Of a DNA stretch of 64,000 nt, positions 1,996 through 62,513 are shown one piece after another; the stretch's first letter is position 1, and every line of letters begins with the position of its first letter. The stretch spans positions 18,688 to 82,687 of the IMG/VR virus record IMGVR_UViG_3300015371_000010; one strand, written 5' to 3'. The notes beneath the pieces are model-generated. The model had not been told where the DNA came from and searched no databases. It was given only the letters and a program-made list of their open reading frames with translations. This stretch comes from a virus. The translations under genes were made by a program, and so were the position numbers.

Positions 1996-2816
1996 CCCTG
2001 TCCGAGGCGCTGCGGTACGGGAAGGGGATCGAACGGTCGTTCCTGTGCCCTGAGCACGGGGACAGCCGCCCCAGCGCCTCGGTGAACATCGCCAAGGGGG
2101 TCTGGTACTGCTACACCTGCCATGCCCATGGAGACCTGACCGGCGACGCCAAGCTGGTCGAGCCGGACTACCAGAAGATGAAGCTCTGGCTGGACAACAA
2201 GCTGAGCGAGGGCACGATCTACCCTGAGTCCTGGCTGTCTCGCTATGACGCCGGCCCGGTCCATCCCTACTGGCTGGGTCGTGTGGGGGAGGTGGCGGCT
2301 AGACACTTCCGTCTTGGGGTCGACGTGGGTGCCGAGGCCGTCACCTATCCCCTGCGCGACCCGGCTGGTCAGGTGCTGGGCGTGGTGCGTCGAGCCCTGG
2401 ACTATGACGGCCAGGGCCCCAAGTACCGCTACCCCAAGGGCCTGGACATGGGCAGCCTGCTGTTCAACTACACCCCGGCGGCTCGGAACGCGGTGGTGCT
2501 CTGTGAGGGCGCGCTGGACGCGATCGCGCTGTGGAAGGTGGGCGTGGACGCCTTCGCCATCTACGGCTCTCGACTGTCCATGGCTCAGGTCATGCTGATC
2601 AACAAGATCGATCCCGAGTACGTCTACTGCTGCTACGACATGGACAAGGCCGGCTGGCAGGCCTACAAGGACACCGCGGACGCCTTCCCCGGTCGCCTGG
2701 TGGGCCGGCTCACCTGGCCTCGGGCCTGGGGTGGGGACATCGACGAGATCGGTGAGGCGCGCCGAAAGAAAGTAGTGAATGAGCTTGTATCAACAGGACG
2801 TGCGTGCATAGCATGA
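1980..2816 (+). CDS. DnaG-type primase (CHC2 zinc finger plus Toprim)
   Basis: This 278-residue protein makes RNA primers for replication. A CHC2-type zinc site is seen at the N-terminus, FLCPEHGDSRPSAS then VWYCYTCHAHGD (about residues 19-50). The Toprim catalytic domain shows VVLCEGALDAI (about 172), with the invariant glutamate, and the acidic pair YDMDKAG (about 220). It is much shorter than bacterial DnaG and lacks the C-terminal helicase-binding domain. ATG 1980 is chosen because the zinc finger begins soon after it. The frame is open further upstream, but that stretch reads as out-of-frame helicase and the 48-residue gene. The 3' end contains the promoter for the next gene. Confidence 0.88.
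   Translation: MWSALTLSEALRYGKGIERSFLCPEHGDSRPSASVNIAKGVWYCYTCHAHGDLTGDAKLVEPDYQKMKLWLDNKLSEGTIYPESWLSRYDAGPVHPYWLGRVGEVAARHFRLGVDVGAEAVTYPLRDPAGQVLGVVRRALDYDGQGPKYRYPKGLDMGSLLFNYTPAARNAVVLCEGALDAIALWKVGVDAFAIYGSRLSMAQVMLINKIDPEYVYCCYDMDKAGWQAYKDTADAFPGRLVGRLTWPRAWGGDIDEIGEARRKKVVNELVSTGRACIA
2785..2814 (+). promoter_or_regulatory. Putative leaderless promoter for the gene at 2821
   Basis: TTGTAT at 2785-2790, an 18-nt spacer and TAGCAT at 2809-2814 sit inside the last codons of the primase. TAGCAT is followed by exactly 6 nt (GAGCAC) and then ATG 2821. No Shine-Dalgarno sequence precedes this ATG. The hexamer is identical to those before the genes at 14416 and 44329. Confidence 0.5.
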
Positions 2817-2820
2817 GCAC

Positions 2821-3204
2821 ATGACCCAGCCAGACCTACTCGTGGCGCAGTACCTGAACGCCAAGACCGAGTACGACAAGGCCAAGGCCCACTACGAGGA
2901 CCTGCAGGCCCAGGTGACCAAGCAGATGGAGGCAGACCACCGGAAGCGCTACAAGTGGAACCAGCAGGGCAAGGTCTGCACGCTCACCTTCGTGCAGCAG
3001 CACCAGACCGACATCGATGAGCCAGGGCTGCGCAAGGCCCTGACCGCCAAGGTCTTCGATCGCTACACCAAGCGGGTGCTGGACCGAAAGGCGATGGAAC
3101 TGGCCATGGACACCGGCGAGGTCGACCCGGTCACGGTCAGCCGGTTCGTGGCCACGCGGCCCAAGAAGCCATTCCTGACCTACACCGAGAAGGAGGCGGA
3201 GTGA
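2821..3204 (+). CDS. Hypothetical protein with N-terminal coiled coil
   Basis: The protein has 127 residues. The first 40 are charged and helical (AKTEYDKAKAHYEDLQAQ), typical of a coiled coil. The remainder is mixed alpha/beta and basic, ending in KPFLTYTEKEAE. No catalytic motif is visible and the family is not recognised. Its place between primase and a run of small DNA-binding proteins suggests a replication or recombination accessory, an inference from position only. Initiation appears leaderless. The next gene starts at GTG 3201, overlapping its stop by GTGA. Confidence 0.65.
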   Translation: MTQPDLLVAQYLNAKTEYDKAKAHYEDLQAQVTKQMEADHRKRYKWNQQGKVCTLTFVQQHQTDIDEPGLRKALTAKVFDRYTKRVLDRKAMELAMDTGEVDPVTVSRFVATRPKKPFLTYTEKEAE

Positions 3205-3500
3205 AGATCGTCGACAGCAAGGAGATCAAGCGGAAGCCGAAGGTCTCTCCGGCCTCTCGGATGATCGAGGCCCTGCCGGCCGACCTGTTCTCGGCGCGCC
3301 AGGTGGCCGATCACTTCGGCGTGAACATCGAGACCATCCGCCGGCTGGCCAGGGCCAAGGACAGCGATGGCAACCCCAAGTTCACCGCGCCGTCCAAGGC
3401 GGCCAAGAACGGAGATCTGGTCGTCTGGGTCTACACCCAGGACGACATCGATGAGCTCGCAGAGTACTTCGGAGAGAAGGCGAGGAAGGTGAGGAAGTAG
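3201..3500 (+). CDS. Helix-turn-helix (MerR-like) DNA-binding protein
   Basis: The protein has 99 residues. Residues about 29-45 (LFSARQVADHFGVNIETIRR) form a MerR/excisionase-type winged helix-turn-helix. It continues with LARAKDSDG and a VVWVYTQDDIDELAEYF segment, the wing and following helix of such domains. There is no effector or dimerisation domain, as in excisionase-like small regulators. GTG 3201 overlaps the preceding stop and the 3' end abuts the next start (TAGTG), so it is an operon member. The target is unknown. With no integrase in view, a regulatory role is more likely than excision. Confidence 0.7.
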   Translation: MKIVDSKEIKRKPKVSPASRMIEALPADLFSARQVADHFGVNIETIRRLARAKDSDGNPKFTAPSKAAKNGDLVVWVYTQDDIDELAEYFGEKARKVRK

Positions 3501-3745
3501 TGCCAGATGTGATCAAGAAGGGAATGAAGGCATACGAGTTGTTCGAGGGAGACCAGATCACCGTGGGAATCACCGCAGAGATCTCAGTCGGTCGCGACAA
3601 GTCGTGGTGCAAGTACGAGGCGACAACCAAGCTTCGCAGTGGTGAGAGAGCAGAAGACGCCAGGACACGGGCCATCGGCCACGTCAACGAGAGCGTGATG
3701 GAAGTAGTAGCCACAACAGTTGAGACGCAGAGGAGCTACAAGTGA
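3500..3745 (+). CDS. Hypothetical protein in the replication operon
   Basis: This 81-residue protein starts at GTG 3500 within the previous stop (TAGTG). It reads as a compact alpha/beta fold: beta-rich DQITVGITAEISVGR, then KSWCKYEATTKL, then a helical, charged C-terminus. The pattern is compatible with a small nucleic-acid- or partner-binding protein, but no family is recognised. It is directly coupled to the probable ssDNA-binding gene (GTGA overlap at 3742), so a replication role is a reasonable guess. Confidence 0.6.
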   Translation: MPDVIKKGMKAYELFEGDQITVGITAEISVGRDKSWCKYEATTKLRSGERAEDARTRAIGHVNESVMEVVATTVETQRSYK

Positions 3746-4542
3746 GGTTCGGCAAGAGCAAGACGGAGGCGGCCGAAGAGCCTGGCCGCGGTGGCGGTGG
3801 GGACTTCATCCGCTACCTCAAGGATGGATCCACGACCTTCCGGATCCTGCAGGAGCAGGACGAGTGGGTCTACTTCTGGGAGCACTTCTCCCCGGCCGGG
3901 TTCTCCTTCCCGTGCCCGCGCAGCGCTGACGACCCGGTGGAGATGTGCCCGGGCTGCTCCAGCGACAACGACAAGATGCGCAAGGCGGGCCGGAAGATCG
4001 CCTTCAACGTGCTGCACAGCGTGAACGGCAACGAGTACATCGACGCCTTCAAGGTGGGCCCGATGGTCGCGGACAAGCTGGAGAACCGGATCAAGCGGTA
4101 CGACACCATCACCGACCGGGACTACACGATCACCAAGTACAAGACCGGCAACGACCGCTGGGACTTCGACGTGGAGGGTGCCACGCCCACCCCGATCGAC
4201 CTGCGCAAGGAGGAGTGGAAGGACATCGAGGCGATGCTCCAGCAGGCCTGGGACGACGCCTGGGGTGACCCGGAGGCGGCTGAGCGCAACAAGGCGGCTG
4301 CTGAGATGCAGACCGCTCGCCCGCGCGCCACGATCGCGCCGGCGCCGAAGCGGGTGGCACCGAAGGAGGTTGCTCCCGAGGAGCCCCCTTTTGAGGAGAA
4401 GTCCTACCGAGAGGAGGACCTGCGGGCCATGGAGCTCCCCAAGTTGGTGGAGACGATCCGGGCCGACATGAAGGTGACCCCGCCGGAGACCCTCAAGACC
4501 AGCGATGAAGTGGTTGACTGGCTGATGGCCCTGCAGGGCTGA
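3742..4542 (+). CDS. Probable phage single-stranded DNA-binding protein
   Basis: The protein has 266 residues. The N-terminal part (FIRYLKDGSTTFRILQEQDEW) and a zinc-like cluster C58, C69-x2-C72 (PCPRSADDPVEMCPGC) precede a beta-rich core (YIDAFKVGP, DYTITKYKTG, WDFDVEG). This is the layout of gp32-like phage ssDNA-binding proteins. The C-terminal third is Pro/Ala-rich then acidic and ends DEVVDWLMALQG, comparable to the acidic partner-recruiting tails of ssDNA-binding proteins. It lies directly before the polymerase, the usual neighbourhood. The start is GTG 3742, overlapping the preceding stop. The assignment rests on fold-level similarity and context, so it is moderate. Confidence 0.6.
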   Translation: MRFGKSKTEAAEEPGRGGGGDFIRYLKDGSTTFRILQEQDEWVYFWEHFSPAGFSFPCPRSADDPVEMCPGCSSDNDKMRKAGRKIAFNVLHSVNGNEYIDAFKVGPMVADKLENRIKRYDTITDRDYTITKYKTGNDRWDFDVEGATPTPIDLRKEEWKDIEAMLQQAWDDAWGDPEAAERNKAAAEMQTARPRATIAPAPKRVAPKEVAPEEPPFEEKSYREEDLRAMELPKLVETIRADMKVTPPETLKTSDEVVDWLMALQG

Positions 4543-4545
4543 GAC

Positions 4546-4588
4546 GTGGGTGGGGCCGGCGACTGATCCCCCGGCCGACCCCACTCAC
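4546..4588 (+). terminator. Strong stem-loop between SSB-like gene and polymerase
   Basis: GTGGGTGGGGCCGG pairs with CCGGCCGACCCCACTCAC with one wobble and one mismatch, giving a long G+C-rich hairpin 4 nt after the stop codon. No T-run follows, so it may be a weak terminator, a processing site or an mRNA stabiliser. The polymerase begins 32 nt later with its own ribosome binding site (AGGACA). Confidence 0.45.
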
Positions 4589-4619
4589 CATTACCCAACG
4601 ATCTACTAGGACACGGGTT

Positions 4620-7373
4620 ATGAAGATCATCCCTGCGCAGCGGCCCTGGCGTATCGAGCCCACGGTCACCGATGCCAAGTTCTGGCACCTGCACGCGCAC
4701 AGCCGGTACTCCTACAACGACGCGATGAGCCACGTCGAGGCGATGGTCAGGCAGGTCGCCGGCTACGGGCAGCCGGCGCTGGCGATCACCGACCACGGCA
4801 ACATGGCGGCCAGTGTGGAGCTGTACCAGGCCTGCCAGCGCTACGGCATCAAGCCGTTCCCGGGCTCCGAGTTGTACTTCGTGCCCGAGACCGCCCAGTA
4901 CCGGGCGGACCGGGCCACCAAGGACCTGAAGTCGACCATGTACCACCTGGGCGTGGTGGCCTACACCAGCGTCGGCTACGAGAACCTGGTCCGGCTGAGC
5001 ACCAACAGCCACAAGAATCATCACTGGAAGCCGCTTGTCGACTACCAGATGTTGGCCCAGATGGCGGAGGATGGTCACACCGAAGGGCTAGCGGTCACCA
5101 CCGGTTGCTACTACGGGTACCTGGCGCAGACATTGCTGGCTCAGGGCGAGGAGCCGGCGTTGCAGTTCTTGCACACGCTGTCCTCCTGGTTCCCGGACGG
5201 CGTCTACGTCGAGGTGCAGAACCACCACATCACCCACGACGAAGGCAGCACCGATGACCAACTGGCCGATGCGTTGGTCGGACTGGCGGACCAAGCGGGC
5301 CTCCCGGTCGTCCTCACGCAGGACTCGCACTACCTGGCGCCCGAGGACCGCGCGGACCATGACGGGCTCAAGAGGCTGGTTTCTTTCGGACCCGATCCCG
5401 ATGACGCGGTATTCCCAGGAGACGGCTTTCATCTGTGTGATGCCCAGTGGATCGCCCAGCACCACGGTCACCGTCGCCTTGCCCGAGGCATGGAGGGACT
5501 CGCAGATCTCCTCGGCCGGCATCGGCTCGGGATACCTGTACTTGACTCTTATTCGTACGCCGTCCCCGAAGTTGTAGCCGACCCGCAGCGGGCCATGGTG
5601 AGCCGGGCCCAGGCGGCGTTGGAGGGCATGTGGGCGCCCAAGGACCCACCGCCGCGGTACCAGGCCAAGCTGAACGAGGAGATCGAGGTCATCGAGGCCT
5701 CGGGAATGGCCGGCTACCTGATGCTGGTCTGCCAGGTCACCGACTGGCTACGCGGCCAGGACATCATGTTCCAGACCCGAGGCAGTGCGGCCGGCTCCAT
5801 GGTCTGCTGGCTGCTGGGCATCTCGAACGTGGATCCGATCAAGTGGAACCTTCGCTTCGAGCGGTTCCTGAGCAAGGATCGCACCAAGCCCCCGGACGTG
5901 GACTTGGACGTGGCCCACGACCGTCGCGACGAGCTCATCGAGATGCTCAACCTCAGATTCACTGCTCATCAGATCGGGTCGTGGGCCACTTACTCCCTGA
6001 ATGACACCGAGGACGAGTTCGGCGACACCCAGCGAGGGTCTCTGCGTGTCCGGTACTTCACTGCAGCAGGAAAGAAGGACGAGGGGGCCACCTCCTGGGG
6101 TGAGGTTCCTGCAGAGGACAAGGCCATGTTGTCGTCGCTCTCCGATCGCCACCTCTACAAGGGTATGGGCACGAATGCCGCCGGAATAGTACTCACCAGT
6201 ACCCAGGCGGAGTTCGACCGACTCGTGCCGATGGCGCATATGACCCGGCCTGGGGGCAAGACCGGGCTGGTCACCCAGTACTCCAAGGACCAGATCGAGG
6301 CGCTGGGCCTGGTCAAGCTGGATGCCCTCGGGCTGAAGACCATGACGGTGCTGGACCGCACCATGCGGCTGCTGAACCTGGACCTGGCCCGGATCAACGA
6401 CATCACCTACAAGGACCAGCCCACCTACCAGCTGATCCGCTCGGGCAGCACCGAGGGCATCTTTCAGCTGGAGGGCCGCTCCACGATGTGGGGGCTGCGG
6501 GACCTGAAGCCGACCAGCATCAAGGACGTGATCGCGGCCATGGCGCTGTTCCGGCCGGCGACCATGAACACCGGTGCGACCAGGGCGTTCATCGCGCGCA
6601 AGCATCGTCAGCAGGCCCTGCCGCTGCGGCATCAGCTGATCATGGCGGTCACCAAGGACACCAACGGGATCATGCTCTACCAGGAGCAGGTGATCGACCT
6701 GCTGCGTGGGCTGGGCATGGACGCGGACAACCTGACCATCTTCCTCAAGGCGGTCAAGGCCTCGAACAAGGACATCGGCAGCGCTGGTGCGGTGATCGAG
6801 ACCTACCAGGAGTGGATCCGCAACGCCTGTGAGGCCGTGGGCATGAGTCAGCTGGACCAGCAGTACCTCCACGACGCCATCGCCGGCTTCAGCGAGTACG
6901 GCTTCAACCGTGCCCACGCGACGGTGTATGGGATCACTGCGTACCGGATGGCGTACCTCGCTGCACGGCACCCACTGGAGTTCCACACCGCGCTGTTGGG
7001 CGTGGCCAGTGGTGGCGAGGCCAAGAAGGAGGACCGGTACCTGAGAGCAACCCGTCGGAGGCAGATTCGGGTGCTGGCTCCGGACATCAACGTCTCGGGA
7101 GCCACCTACTCCATCGACGCTGCTCGCGGGGCCATCCGCAAAGGGCTGCAAAGCATAGACGGCGTGGGATCGATCTCCGCGGCGCGTCTGGAGGCCTTGC
7201 AACCCTTCACTGATCTTGACGACCTGGTCGCCAAGGCGGCTGAGCATCACATCTCTGGGTTCAAGGAGTATGACGGCACTCTCGATTCCCTTACTGGGAT
7301 CTTAGGCAAGCTCCACGCCTCTGGGTGCCTAACCAGGCTGACCAATGTGAGGAGGATCGATGCACAGATGTGA
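4620..7373 (+). CDS. DNA polymerase III alpha subunit (DnaE-like) with PHP domain
   Basis: This 917-residue C-family replicative polymerase begins with a PHP domain: HLHAHSRYS (about residue 23), TDHGNM (about 57) and GSELY (about 82). The retained histidines suggest an active PHP proofreading nuclease. The polymerase core has GSAAGSMVCWLLG (about 389), FERFL, PPDVDLDV (about 424, two catalytic aspartates) and KLDALGLKTMT (about 568, third aspartate). GIFQLEGRS and the helical YQEQVIDLLRGLG region follow. A helix-hairpin-helix-like GLQSIDGVGSISAARL lies near the C-terminus. It is about 250 residues shorter than E. coli DnaE and lacks the OB and tau-binding parts. The start is supported by AGGA 10 nt upstream. 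Confidence 0.93.
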   Translation: MKIIPAQRPWRIEPTVTDAKFWHLHAHSRYSYNDAMSHVEAMVRQVAGYGQPALAITDHGNMAASVELYQACQRYGIKPFPGSELYFVPETAQYRADRATKDLKSTMYHLGVVAYTSVGYENLVRLSTNSHKNHHWKPLVDYQMLAQMAEDGHTEGLAVTTGCYYGYLAQTLLAQGEEPALQFLHTLSSWFPDGVYVEVQNHHITHDEGSTDDQLADALVGLADQAGLPVVLTQDSHYLAPEDRADHDGLKRLVSFGPDPDDAVFPGDGFHLCDAQWIAQHHGHRRLARGMEGLADLLGRHRLGIPVLDSYSYAVPEVVADPQRAMVSRAQAALEGMWAPKDPPPRYQAKLNEEIEVIEASGMAGYLMLVCQVTDWLRGQDIMFQTRGSAAGSMVCWLLGISNVDPIKWNLRFERFLSKDRTKPPDVDLDVAHDRRDELIEMLNLRFTAHQIGSWATYSLNDTEDEFGDTQRGSLRVRYFTAAGKKDEGATSWGEVPAEDKAMLSSLSDRHLYKGMGTNAAGIVLTSTQAEFDRLVPMAHMTRPGGKTGLVTQYSKDQIEALGLVKLDALGLKTMTVLDRTMRLLNLDLARINDITYKDQPTYQLIRSGSTEGIFQLEGRSTMWGLRDLKPTSIKDVIAAMALFRPATMNTGATRAFIARKHRQQALPLRHQLIMAVTKDTNGIMLYQEQVIDLLRGLGMDADNLTIFLKAVKASNKDIGSAGAVIETYQEWIRNACEAVGMSQLDQQYLHDAIAGFSEYGFNRAHATVYGITAYRMAYLAARHPLEFHTALLGVASGGEAKKEDRYLRATRRRQIRVLAPDINVSGATYSIDAARGAIRKGLQSIDGVGSISAARLEALQPFTDLDDLVAKAAEHHISGFKEYDGTLDSLTGILGKLHASGCLTRLTNVRRIDAQM

Positions 7374-8443: not shown

Positions 8444-8852
8444 CACGCCGGCGGTGATGGCGCCCAAGGCCCAGTTCAGCCGGCGACTGACCGATGTCGA
8501 TGTCCTGGAGGGCCTGCCCAGCGTCGAAGAGCTGCACGACGAGCTGCTGGGTTACGCCAACATCATCCTTGGGCGTGCCGACCCACCAATGGAGATCGAT
8601 GGGTTTTACTTGGATCTGATGGAAGTGGCAGCCGCGTACTACGCGCGGGCCAAGGAGATCGACATGCTGATCCACTGGGAGGAGCAGAACCGGCGGGTGA
8701 TCAGGGGGTCGCCGTACTACAAGTTCCGGACCGGTCAACTGAGGAGCTTCATCGAGATGGCCAAGATGATGGCGGAGCTGGGGAGCAGACGCCTGACTCA
8801 GGAACGGCTGCTCTCGGATCAGCGGTTCGATGCGGGGAACGGTGGTGAGTGA
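8421..8852 (+). CDS. Hypothetical protein
   Basis: The protein has 143 residues. ATG 8421 has GGAGGAGG about 10 nt upstream and overlaps the exonuclease by 23 nt. The sequence is largely helical with Met- and Arg-rich segments (LMEVAAAYYARAKEIDMLIHW, then LRSFIEMAKMMAELGSRRLTQERLL), lacking Cys clusters or catalytic motifs. Its family is not recognised. Tight coupling to the exonuclease and the following winged-helix gene (TGATG) implies a related DNA-metabolism or regulatory role, by context only. Confidence 0.6.
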   Translation: MRVIPTPDTPAVMAPKAQFSRRLTDVDVLEGLPSVEELHDELLGYANIILGRADPPMEIDGFYLDLMEVAAAYYARAKEIDMLIHWEEQNRRVIRGSPYYKFRTGQLRSFIEMAKMMAELGSRRLTQERLLSDQRFDAGNGGE

Positions 8853-55211: not shown

Positions 55212-55779
55212 CCCGTTCTGGGTCAAGGTGCTCTACGCCGTGGCCTGGACGATGGTCACCGTCGGCTATCTGGTGCGCGACCTGGTTTCGGGCATAAAAA
55301 AAGGCCCGAGAGGGCCCGCCCCTCCCGAAGGAGAGACGGGCCCGTGGGTCCTTGATCAGCCGCCAGCGAACTGGGCGGTCATGCGGATCTGCTCGGTCTC
55401 GGGGTTGAAGGTCCGGGTGGAGACCTCCTCCTTGATCTTGCCACCGCCCCAGCCCTGGACCTCGACGGTCTCGAAGGCGGCCATGCCGGTCAGCAGGGCC
55501 TTCTCGAAGGCGTCCTTGGCTGCCAGCACCGACTGTAGGTCGTCCTTGTCCCAGGTCACCTCGTTGATGGACCCCATCAGGATCCGCCCGGTCACCTTGG
55601 GCTCCTTCTTCGGCCGCAGGGCCGTCATCACACTCATCTGGCATTCCCTTCATCTGTTGGACATGCAGAAACCCCCGACCCCCTCCGAAGAGGGAGCCGG
55701 GGGCTGGAGTGGGTCTCGTCACCCACCACTCACGGTCACACGACTGGACTCGACGACCGTGAGAGTCTCATCAGGCTAG
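55180..55779 (+). CDS. Doubtful ORF: single membrane helix running into antisense sequence
   Basis: ATG 55180 starts a frame with a plausible single transmembrane helix, DPFWVKVLYAVAWTMVTVGYL, followed by RDLVSGIKK. It then continues through a terminator hairpin and antisense to a leftward gene, stopping only at 55779. The first 40 codons look protein-like and the remainder does not. A run of seven A (55296-55302) lies at the junction. Slipping -1 there gives a basic tail and a stop at about 55353. A real small membrane protein with a different C-terminus is possible. Confidence 0.3.
   Translation: MLDSWPSPSDDPFWVKVLYAVAWTMVTVGYLVRDLVSGIKKGPRGPAPPEGETGPWVLDQPPANWAVMRICSVSGLKVRVETSSLILPPPQPWTSTVSKAAMPVSRAFSKASLAASTDCRSSLSQVTSLMDPIRIRPVTLGSFFGRRAVITLIWHSLHLLDMQKPPTPSEEGAGGWSGSRHPPLTVTRLDSTTVRVSSG
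55296..55346. terminator. Convergent terminator region between rightward and leftward blocks
   Basis: Read leftward, GGCCC-TCTC-GGGCC (55316-55303) is followed by seven T (55302-55296), a canonical intrinsic terminator for the leftward operon. An overlapping hairpin GGGCCCG...CGGGCCC (55312-55318 with 55337-55343) can form in both directions and may stop rightward transcripts, though with few Ts. Confidence 0.75.
55356..55637 (-). CDS. Hypothetical protein, last gene of the leftward operon
   Basis: The protein has 93 residues, with GAAGGGAA before ATG 55637. KKEPKVTGRILMGSINEVTW and then KDAFEKALLTGMAAFETVEV, KIKEEVSTRTFNPETEQIRM form an alpha/beta protein without recognisable motifs. It lies alone between two stem-loops (55672-55703 upstream, 55296-55346 downstream) and could be expressed from its own transcript. 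No family is recognised. Confidence 0.62.
   Translation of the reverse strand: MSVMTALRPKKEPKVTGRILMGSINEVTWDKDDLQSVLAAKDAFEKALLTGMAAFETVEVQGWGGGKIKEEVSTRTFNPETEQIRMTAQFAGG
55672..55703 (-). terminator. Stem-loop upstream of the 55637 gene
   Basis: CCCCCGACCCCCTC pairs with GAGGGAGCCGGGGG around a CGAA loop (TTCG on the leftward strand, a stable tetraloop). Read leftward it is followed by TTTCTGC. It separates the ParB-like gene from the last gene of the operon. Confidence 0.65.
55729..55763. other. Inverted repeat after the ParB-like gene
   Basis: CTCACGGTC (55729-55737) and GACCGTGAG (55755-55763) form a perfect 9-bp inverted repeat with a 17-nt loop, 12 nt past the ParB-like stop. No T-run follows. 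It may be a protein-binding site or RNA stabiliser rather than a terminator. Its vicinity to a ParB-like gene makes a DNA-binding site worth testing. Confidence 0.45.
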
Positions 55780-61429: not shown

Positions 61430-61466
61430 CGTCCTTTCCTTGATGTGAATCTCATGACAGAAGGGA

Positions 61467-61492
61467 GAGGAGCCGCCCCCCAGCGGCTCCTC
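61467..61492 (-). terminator. Stem-loop after the membrane-protein gene
   Basis: GAGGAGCCG (61467-61475) and CGGCTCCTC (61484-61492) form a perfect 9-bp stem with an 8-nt loop. Read leftward it is followed by TCCCTTCTGTC, a weak pyrimidine tract. It lies 25 nt past the stop of the 273-residue gene. Confidence 0.62.
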
Positions 61493-61517
61493 CCCCTCCT
61501 TGGTGGTGATGCAGGTA

Positions 61518-62339
61518 CTACTTGGCCGAGATCAGCGCGGCCTTGAGCTGAGCCACGTCCTTGAGACGCTGGGCCTCACGCTCGACGCCCTGTCGCATGG
61601 CGCTGAGCGACCACATCTCCTCGTTCGGCTCCGTCCGCAGCGCGGAGGCCTTGCAGGCCCGGTAGATGTCGGGCACCGAGGCGTTCTTGGTGACCTTGCC
61701 CCCGTTCCCGCTGCGCACCTGGAGCAGGAACAGCCGACCGGTGAGGTCGGAGAACAGGTCCACGTCCTCCTCAGCCGAAGCCGTGTTCTGCAGGCTCTCC
61801 AGGTACTCGTACCGAGACTCGATGGTCTCGTCCGAGCTGAGGTCGATGTCCAGCGTGGACTCGTAGCTCTCACCCTGGGTCGGGATCGACAGGCGGCCCT
61901 CCGTCGCCGGCGACGCGAGCGCCACGGGCCGACGGGCACGCCAGAACAGGATGACCAGAGCGGCGGTGACCGCGGTCATCGCGCCGATCATGAACAACGG
62001 CGGCATGACAGCGCCGACGACGCCACCACCGAGCACCCACGGCACCGGCCCACGCCAGACACCGTGCCGGAGCCAGCCGCCGAAGCTGCGGGCCTGAGCC
62101 ACCGTCCAGCGGACCGGGGCGAGGTTCCACACCCACTTGGCACCGCTGACGATCTTGTCGCGCGACCACTGCAGGGCGCGCACGAACCAGTTGCCGACCC
62201 GCTTCAGGCCGGCCTTGATCTTCTGCCCCCAGTTGCTGAGGCGGGTTCCGACGCGGGCCCAGAAGCCCTCGGCGGTGGGGATGCTGGAGGCCGGACGAAC
62301 CGCCACCTCAACATCCGGGGAGACAACGGCAGTAGCCAT
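61518..62339 (-). CDS. Membrane protein of unknown function
   Basis: The protein has 273 residues. ATG 62339 follows CACATGAAAGGAA. An N-terminal amphipathic, Trp/Arg-rich region (KIKAGLKRVGNWFVRALQWS, DKIVSGAKWVWNLAPVRW) precedes a hydrophobic hairpin, VPWVLGGGVVGAVMPPLFMI then TAVTAALVILFW, probably two helices or one re-entrant pair. The C-terminal 130 residues are soluble and helical, rich in Glu/Ser (YESTLDIDLSSDETIESRYE). A leader with promoter and stem-loop precedes the gene. It could anchor an early complex to the membrane. Confidence 0.62.
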   Translation of the reverse strand: MATAVVSPDVEVAVRPASSIPTAEGFWARVGTRLSNWGQKIKAGLKRVGNWFVRALQWSRDKIVSGAKWVWNLAPVRWTVAQARSFGGWLRHGVWRGPVPWVLGGGVVGAVMPPLFMIGAMTAVTAALVILFWRARRPVALASPATEGRLSIPTQGESYESTLDIDLSSDETIESRYEYLESLQNTASAEEDVDLFSDLTGRLFLLQVRSGNGGKVTKNASVPDIYRACKASALRTEPNEEMWSLSAMRQGVEREAQRLKDVAQLKAALISAK

Positions 62340-62348
62340 TGTTGTGAT

Positions 62349-62359
62349 TCCTTTCATGT
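62349..62359 (-). repeat. CACATGAAAGG leader motif (copy 3)
   Basis: This exact copy of the 11-mer precedes ATG 62339 of the membrane-protein gene by 9 nt. It lies in a non-coding leader downstream of the stem-loop at 62418-62452. Confidence 0.6.
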
Positions 62360-62417
62360 GGTTTCGACTGCTGTCCTGGGAGTGCCACTCCTCCACCACG
62401 CCGTGGTGCGGACATGC

Positions 62418-62452
62418 AAAAAGCCCCGCAGCCATCTGGGCTACGGGGCTTG
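62418..62452 (-). terminator. Intrinsic terminator or attenuator before the membrane-protein gene
   Basis: Read leftward, AAGCCCCGTAGCC pairs with GGCTGCGGGGCTT and is followed by TTT within TTTTTGC. It lies between a promoter-like sequence (62484-62513) and ATG 62339, so it either ends the upstream transcript or attenuates the leader of the membrane-protein gene. Confidence 0.7.
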
Positions 62453-62483
62453 CGTGCGGGCATGCTTACGCCAGCACAGGACT

Positions 62484-62513
62484 ATTGTATCACATTTCAT
62501 ACACAACAGTCCA
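62484..62513 (-). promoter_or_regulatory. Putative leftward promoter in an A/T-rich near-palindrome
   Basis: Read leftward, TGGACT, an 18-nt spacer and TACAAT (62489-62484) resemble a sigma-70 promoter. The region is among the most A/T-rich in the window and holds an imperfect inverted repeat (GGACTATTGTAT against ATACACAACAGTCC) that could bind a regulator. Transcription would start about 62477 and meet the stem-loop at 62452-62418. Confidence 0.45.

Follow-up and report, generated by a model that had tools for sequence, protein, structure and literature searches.

A compact unit made up of a predicted promoter, a short leader RNA opening with a hairpin, and an intrinsic terminator was found between two genes, P0002 and P0001, of an uncultured phage. 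The arrangement was kept in six related soil phages and recurred before other genes. This suggested, as its probable role, a shared switch turning gene expression on or off. The best reading, to which we give an even chance of being right, is a leader unit whose terminator is bypassed in a regulated manner.

The stretch analyzed (the window) was 64,000 nt long and spanned positions 18,688-82,687 of an 82,687-base IMG/VR record (IMGVR_UViG_3300015371_000010). Its GC content was 63-70% (2-kb steps). Among the matches listed, the best for the window DNA polymerase and AAA-ATPase were in Gordonia and Mycobacterium phages (about 34% identity), which makes an actinobacterial host likely. A search of the window for tRNA genes found none. 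The neighborhoods of the AAA-ATPase genes were also compared with those of phages McProf and Fryberger, and no gene order was shared.

Table 1. Positions of the elements of the leader unit, its flanking genes and related terminators (window coordinates unless a locus is named)
Feature	Position	Strand	Basis or remark
P0002 gene, 236 aa	62516-63226	minus	stop two bases before the -35-like hexamer (window)
Imperfect inverted repeat overlapping the promoter; would fold as RNA into a hairpin containing G-U pairs	62479-62512	minus	folding
Conserved spacer element (-29 to -13), TTGTGT...TGTGA	62490-62506	minus	common to class B promoters
Extended -10 element, TGATACAAT	62492-62484	minus	TACAAT and its TG invariant in 6/6
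RNA start (assumed) and 5' hairpin H1, GTGC-T-GGCGT-AAGC-ATGCC-C-GCAC	62454-62477	minus	folding
Intrinsic terminator hairpin, loop CAGAT, U-run 62422-62418	62418-62451	minus	folding
CATGTCC directly past the U-run	62410-62416	minus	recurs behind terminators preceding a same-strand gene
Two adjacent odd-centered palindromes, CACCACGGCGTGGTG and GGAGTGGCACTCC	62379-62408	minus	by eye; in the leader
P0001 gene, 273 aa; membrane protein (predicted), helical domain at the C-terminus	61518-62339	minus	follows the leader
Strong hairpin just past the P0001 stop, T-tract short and interrupted	61459-61500	minus	folding
Second terminator with CATGTCC in the window, no recognizable promoter	55659-55768 (tail 55665-55660)	minus	covariance-model match
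Terminator without clear promoter, L022	7299	minus	
Terminator without clear promoter, L005	9454		
Terminator without clear promoter, L008	9984		
Terminator without clear promoter, L009	15456		

The promoter-like sequence TGGACT-18-TACAAT, pointed out in the preliminary description, was present on the minus strand at 62513-62484, within the imperfect inverted repeat. A promoter scan alone was at chance level (one site found, where 0.4 would be expected in 4 kb and 1.8 per 20 kb), and the terminator was not among the listings of the consensus scan that found this site. The pattern TGnTAnWAT occurred only once in the 64-kb window (both strands).

Comparison of the six phages upheld the -10 part of this promoter but not the -35 part. 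TACAAT, T.TG (-17 to -14) and TTnTGT (-29 to -24) were invariant in all six. The -35 hexamer was poor and not conserved, TGGACT at a spacing of 18 being found in just three of the six (the window, L005 and L009).

The inverted repeat paired at 9-10 of the first 10 positions (G-T counted) in five of the six phages, and L002 lacked the repeat. It folded well as RNA, because several of the asymmetric positions are G-T (z -4.3 to -8.0 in five phages; -1.5 in L002). A direct repeat, TTGTGT/TTGTGA, with copies 11 bp apart, agreed at five of six bases in three phages, at four in two others and at three in the remaining one. Promoter bases make up the second half of both repeats, whose conservation therefore adds no independent evidence.

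The proposed stem-loop with a T-run was found as described (TTTTT at 62422-62418; ATG at 62339). The hairpin at 62422 was the strongest of three T-run hairpins that the folding script listed for the window, a list that lacked at least one such hairpin (55329-55302) listed by another scan. The 67-nt stretch 62478-62412 folded at z = -5.8, and none of 200 shuffles was as low.

With the RNA start set by assumption at 7 bases past the -10 element, the predicted product in the window was about 60 nt (62477-62418), as had been suggested before. The size was 60-65 nt in four of the other five units at this place (class A). The predicted RNA of L008 was 117 nt; a double-hairpin insert lay between its 5' hairpin and terminator, and a near-identical 38-nt sequence occurred again past the terminator.

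All six class A RNAs contained a 5' hairpin, weakest in L002, followed by a terminator hairpin of 11-15 pairs. Their folds gave z -3.9 to -5.8 (0/300 shuffles as low). In the isolated RNAs the mean pair probability of the terminator helix was 0.95-0.99 in 6/6, the lowest single pair being 0.44 (L004). The CAGAT loop recurred in four of the six, and GCATGCCC was present in 7 of the 12 promoter-bearing units of all classes described below.

The element had been called an attenuator-like leader. As sequence features, it did have a promoter, a leader RNA and a terminator in cis. Folding of the six class A RNAs in isolation gave no alternative to the terminator. Inspection by eye of the same six revealed no conserved leader peptide; ATGCCC was present only in the window, L002 and L004, and a ribosome site was not seen. 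A classical attenuator was not supported.

Other features were sought in the same region. No -10-like pause element past +1 was seen by eye. The terminator resembled a tRNA D-arm by eye, and this likeness was not kept in the other phages. A replication-primer reading was set aside; GC skew had no evident switch at the site.

The two palindromes in the leader had counterparts in L002 (about 5787-5885) and L008 (8769-8806 and 8861-8898). Their sequence varied between phages and their symmetry did not, and the short RNA of L008 held a 95% identical copy. These pairs look like small mobile or duplicated hairpin elements.

Six records, all of uncultured phages, were compared: that of the window (G000) and G001-G005. 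Class A units were carried by the window and five other loci (L002, L004, L005, L008 and L009). The P0002 protein as query found L002, and a DNA pattern from the window and L002 found a third contig, L004. Three P0002 proteins as query brought the total to five contigs, and six proteins returned the identical five. A promoter pattern derived from the members matched four of these five and added no new member. Of its 10 stretches in viral contigs, four were in contigs already known; the other six lacked a hairpin-terminator unit and were taken as chance, as was a single match in genome contigs. Three of the six records were only 26-33 kb long, and the absence of a unit from a record therefore means little.

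In all six phages found to carry P0002, the unit sat between P0002 and a P0001-like gene. Its position was kept while the P0001 relatives were only 16-32% identical to that of the window, those of L004 and L005 (16%) being assigned mainly by position and hydrophobic profile. A covariance model was built on four class A units, with L008 and L009 held out. It recovered both held-out units (E 1.4e-10 and 4.6e-7). The order of promoter, terminator and gene, first noticed in the window, was conserved in 6/6. As a matter of sequence, the observation was thus confirmed as real: conservation was decisive, the promoter scan alone being at chance.

The P0002 homologs of the five other phages were 48-56% identical to that of the window. 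P0002 contained a CxxC...CxxC pattern with four invariant cysteines, which is a probable zinc ribbon. Its profile matches were weak, the best being to Elf1 (E 0.0013) and to a TFIIB-type zinc ribbon (E 0.017), in two of the six members each. The structure model was too poor to judge the fold (pLDDT 52). The P0002 alignment had no sequence match in the Q family or the PDB, and Q was absent from the fold matches shown. P0002 had no match in genome contigs, and fold searches with P0001 and P0002 gave nothing at E 1e-3.

P0001 is fast-evolving. Its N-terminal part is basic and tryptophan-rich, and its helical C-terminal domain was modeled confidently. There was no convincing match in Pfam, PHROG, PDB or BFVD, and P0001 as query found no relative in viral contigs. 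A strong hairpin followed the gene in all six phages, with a short or poor T-tract. The region of the P0001 leader is non-structural and probably early.

A tract of 2.8 kb whose open frames were few and short was noticed outside the window at G000:C1:1894-4690 (minus; L022) and in L009 at 2424-5260. G made up 42% of its gene-sense strand; GGCAGGC occurred 47 times in it, with GG dinucleotides roughly every 4.8 nt. Scrambled blocks were common to the two tracts (79-95% identity). In L009, 3.4 kb lay between the end of the tract and the promoter unit downstream. Among cultured phages, three records of Mycobacterium phages matched the tract, over no more than 9% of it and with 68-69% identity.

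Beyond the preliminary description, such units recurred elsewhere in the genome of the window. The covariance model gave 14 further matches in the six records. Eleven were inspected, yielding six promoter-bearing units and five terminators without a clear promoter; the other three had E > 1. Class B promoters (TTGTGC-17-TATACT) were present in G000, G002 and G004, and class C promoters (TATAAT, mostly inside TAAATAGGCTATAAT) in G000, G001 and G002. All three classes were present in G000 and G002, two classes in G001 and G004, and a single class in G003 and G005.

Each of the 12 promoter-bearing units had a 5' hairpin and a terminator (z -3.2 to -7.5; 0/200 shuffles as low each), which in classes B and C is not independent evidence, as the hairpins and the tail were already contained in the search model. 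Their promoters scored 11-13. At random places a score of 10 was the 95th percentile and 12 the 99th, so that single promoters are not compelling alone. The U-run was followed by CATGTC in nine units, CATGCC in two and CTTGTC in one. Those units that were read were followed by a reading frame on the same strand, with a possible ribosome site.

A 16-base H1 sequence, GGGCGTAAGCATGCCC, was present exactly in the class C unit of G000 and with one mismatch in the class A unit of the window. Allowing three mismatches, the six records contained 10 matches, against three for the reversed control. G000 and G002 each had two of the four matches with 0-2 mismatches, all of them in units of class A or C; one of the six with three mismatches lay in a class A unit. 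The terminator tail with CATGTC, GGGNCNTTTTNCATGTC, gave 18 matches in the six records at up to two mismatches, part of which were inspected, and the reversed pattern gave none.

The five terminators without a clear promoter were followed by CATGTC in four cases and CACGAC in one, mostly with a ribosome site and a start codon. The one at L005 had a borderline promoter-like site (score 10.5). This suggested that the CATGTC motif is general to terminators before same-strand genes.

The promoters of classes A and B shared an element in the spacer. Of the 17 bases between -35 and -10, an average of 11.7 were identical between A and B, against 8.1 for A and C; class C promoters lacked the element. 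Of 20,000 permutations of the class B columns, one was as good, or 30 when the three bases beside -10 were left out, in a test that preserves the relatedness among the B promoters but treats the six A promoters as fixed. Among the A promoters two were the same and a third was almost so; two of the three B spacers also had the same sequence.

We interpreted the unit as follows. A host-type promoter would fire, and the RNA would open with a hairpin near +1. By default, polymerase would stop about 60 nt on at the intrinsic terminator, leaving a short stable RNA, and P0001 would be expressed when polymerase passes the terminator. The order, conservation and recurrence of the elements were observed; the use of the promoter, the RNA end at the U-run, the transcription of P0001 from this promoter and the regulated bypass are what we infer.

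The repeated layout was promoter, 5' hairpin, terminator, CATGTC, ribosome site and gene. Its presence at three loci in G000 and G002, together with the 17-nt spacer element of classes A and B, suggested that a single system would control bypass at these promoters. A factor might be loaded at the promoter spacer, as are Q and AlpA, or the hairpin of the nascent RNA might act on polymerase, as in HK022 put. The adjacent zinc-ribbon-like P0002 would be a candidate factor. That it is an antiterminator is a guess from its position, the four invariant cysteines and the weak zinc-ribbon and Elf1 matches. Regulated bypass also has points against it. H1 varies (class B, L005, L008 and L009; weak in L002) and may therefore only protect the RNA, and a leaky terminator would need no system, which counts against regulated bypass.

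Action in cis was favored by the same-strand frame after the units, the hairpin past P0001, and the position of CATGTC past the expected RNA end, where any role of the motif should be confined to DNA or to read-through RNA. The spacing in L009 also favored action in cis: the U-run (8774-8777) and the ATG (8816) are only 38 nt apart, with hardly any space for a second promoter.

In a wider form, which we put forward tentatively as possible, the units would make up a genome-wide antitermination regulon. Several early promoters would carry a common loading element between -35 and -10, the short hairpin RNA from each would be stopped at a leader terminator, passage would depend on a phage factor (perhaps P0002) or on the 5' hairpin, and CATGTC would be part of the signal.

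Plain attenuation or insulation was considered rather unlikely. The terminator would end the upstream operon and trim new transcription to a fixed low level, with unregulated bypass. The P0002 stop lies two bases from the -35-like hexamer in the window, read-through from upstream would meet the terminator as well, and the existence of terminators with CATGTC but no clear promoter also fits. The conserved 5' hairpin, the shared promoter spacer and the repeated H1 would be left unexplained.

It is unlikely that the RNA of about 60 nt is itself the functional product and, as a trans-acting small RNA, regulates an RNA or protein of phage or host, with the membrane-protein gene expressed by leaky read-through. 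The RNA is compact and highly structured, has its 5' end in a stem, and comes with its own promoter and terminator, and abundant non-coding RNAs are described for the actinophages L5, D29 and WC1 (PMC5712189, PMC10986025). On the other hand, the body of the RNA was more variable than the promoter, with nothing but the CAGAT loop and GCATGCCC recurring in it, and a conserved unpaired seed was not seen. This explanation also does not account for CATGTC past the U-run or for the same-strand gene after each unit.

Control at the DNA level only, with the inverted repeat as a repressor operator and the hairpins incidental, was judged very improbable. It would explain the pairing of the repeat in five of six phages, but the asymmetries are mostly G-T, which still pair as RNA, L002 has no repeat, and the downstream hairpins would be unexplained. 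That the stem-loop serves only to terminate P0002, a possibility raised in the preliminary description, and that the promoter is fortuitous, as its chance-level scan might suggest, is hardly credible, since a conserved promoter and 5' hairpin lie between P0002 and the terminator in 6/6, and the -10, its TG and TTnTGT are invariant while P0002 has diverged.

Returning to regulated bypass, if the regulon is true, it would be an antitermination system without sequence kinship to N, Q, put or AlpA. Most known cases of phage antitermination come from phages of gamma-proteobacteria. A leader system present in several copies in phages that are rich in GC and probably actinobacterial would offer a defined RNA or DNA signal and possibly new tools for transcription control in these hosts. 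If the 12 units are no more than plain leaders, they still predict where transcription starts and stops in uncultured phages.

Searches of databases and literature did not uncover a described counterpart. In Rfam 15 the window and nine loci had no match at the gathering score; the highest-scoring weak match at the site was ncS01 (25.5 bits against a cut-off of 58; E 0.013 in a 301-base search). The exact terminator sequence had no match in viral contigs. In cultured phages, blastn with 1.9 kb and tblastn with P0001 and P0002 found no match, and tblastn with the L004 homolog (E ≤ 1) found only a weak one in a Klebsiella phage (E 0.1). Short-element blastn there gave only 19-39-base matches for class A (E ≤ 10) and class C (E ≤ 1), and none for class B. 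Two of these matches were read, in the Streptomyces phages Ibantik and Yosif; they were terminators in a short intergenic gap, with no promoter unit by eye. In all, no DNA match to the unit in cultured phages was longer than a terminator. The literature searched, on small RNAs of mycobacteriophages, actinobacteriophages and phages in general, antitermination and leaders, with few subscription journals covered, contained no description of the unit among the results listed.

Among known systems, the unit resembles the lambdoid pR'/tR'/Q arrangement (lambda, 21) of a promoter, a short terminated RNA and then genes. In lambda, Q lies immediately upstream of pR', and here the probable zinc-ribbon gene P0002 occupies that place. 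Unlike the Q system, P0002 has no detectable Q homology, the target is a membrane-protein gene in a non-structural region, and there are several units per genome. In phage 21 the Q binding element is described as lying between -35 and -10 (PMC6606751). The class A and B promoters conserve an element at this position, where Q-type binding is putative.

AlpA of Pseudomonas aeruginosa is described as binding an element between -10 and -35, with intrinsic terminators standing ahead of the first gene at two loci (PMC7969949). The combination of a spacer element with a terminator before the gene is similar, but the spacer motif differs, and ours are phage leaders rather than part of a host program.

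HK022 put is described as an RNA of about 70 nt with two stem-loops, downstream of early promoters, in two related copies per genome (PMC9378689). The present unit likewise has a predicted short RNA with two hairpins and several copies per genome. It differs in that the last stem-loop is itself an intrinsic terminator and in that phage and host are unrelated.

In IsrK/anrP of Gifsy-1, a short terminated RNA and an mRNA made by read-through come from the same promoter, downstream of an antiterminator gene (PMC4825925). The present unit, with its proposed read-through mRNA, is like it; evidence for an upstream ORF was absent from the present leaders. The RNAs of L5 and D29 Pleft and of WC1 are also short, early and abundant, in phages of Actinomycetota (PMC5712189, PMC10986025). 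That of L5 differs, as it comes from a genome-end region of about 500 bp and is described as lacking an evident canonical stem-loop terminator (PMC5712189). Taken with these systems, the unit appears to belong to the known type of promoter-leader-terminator control, of which it would be a new form.
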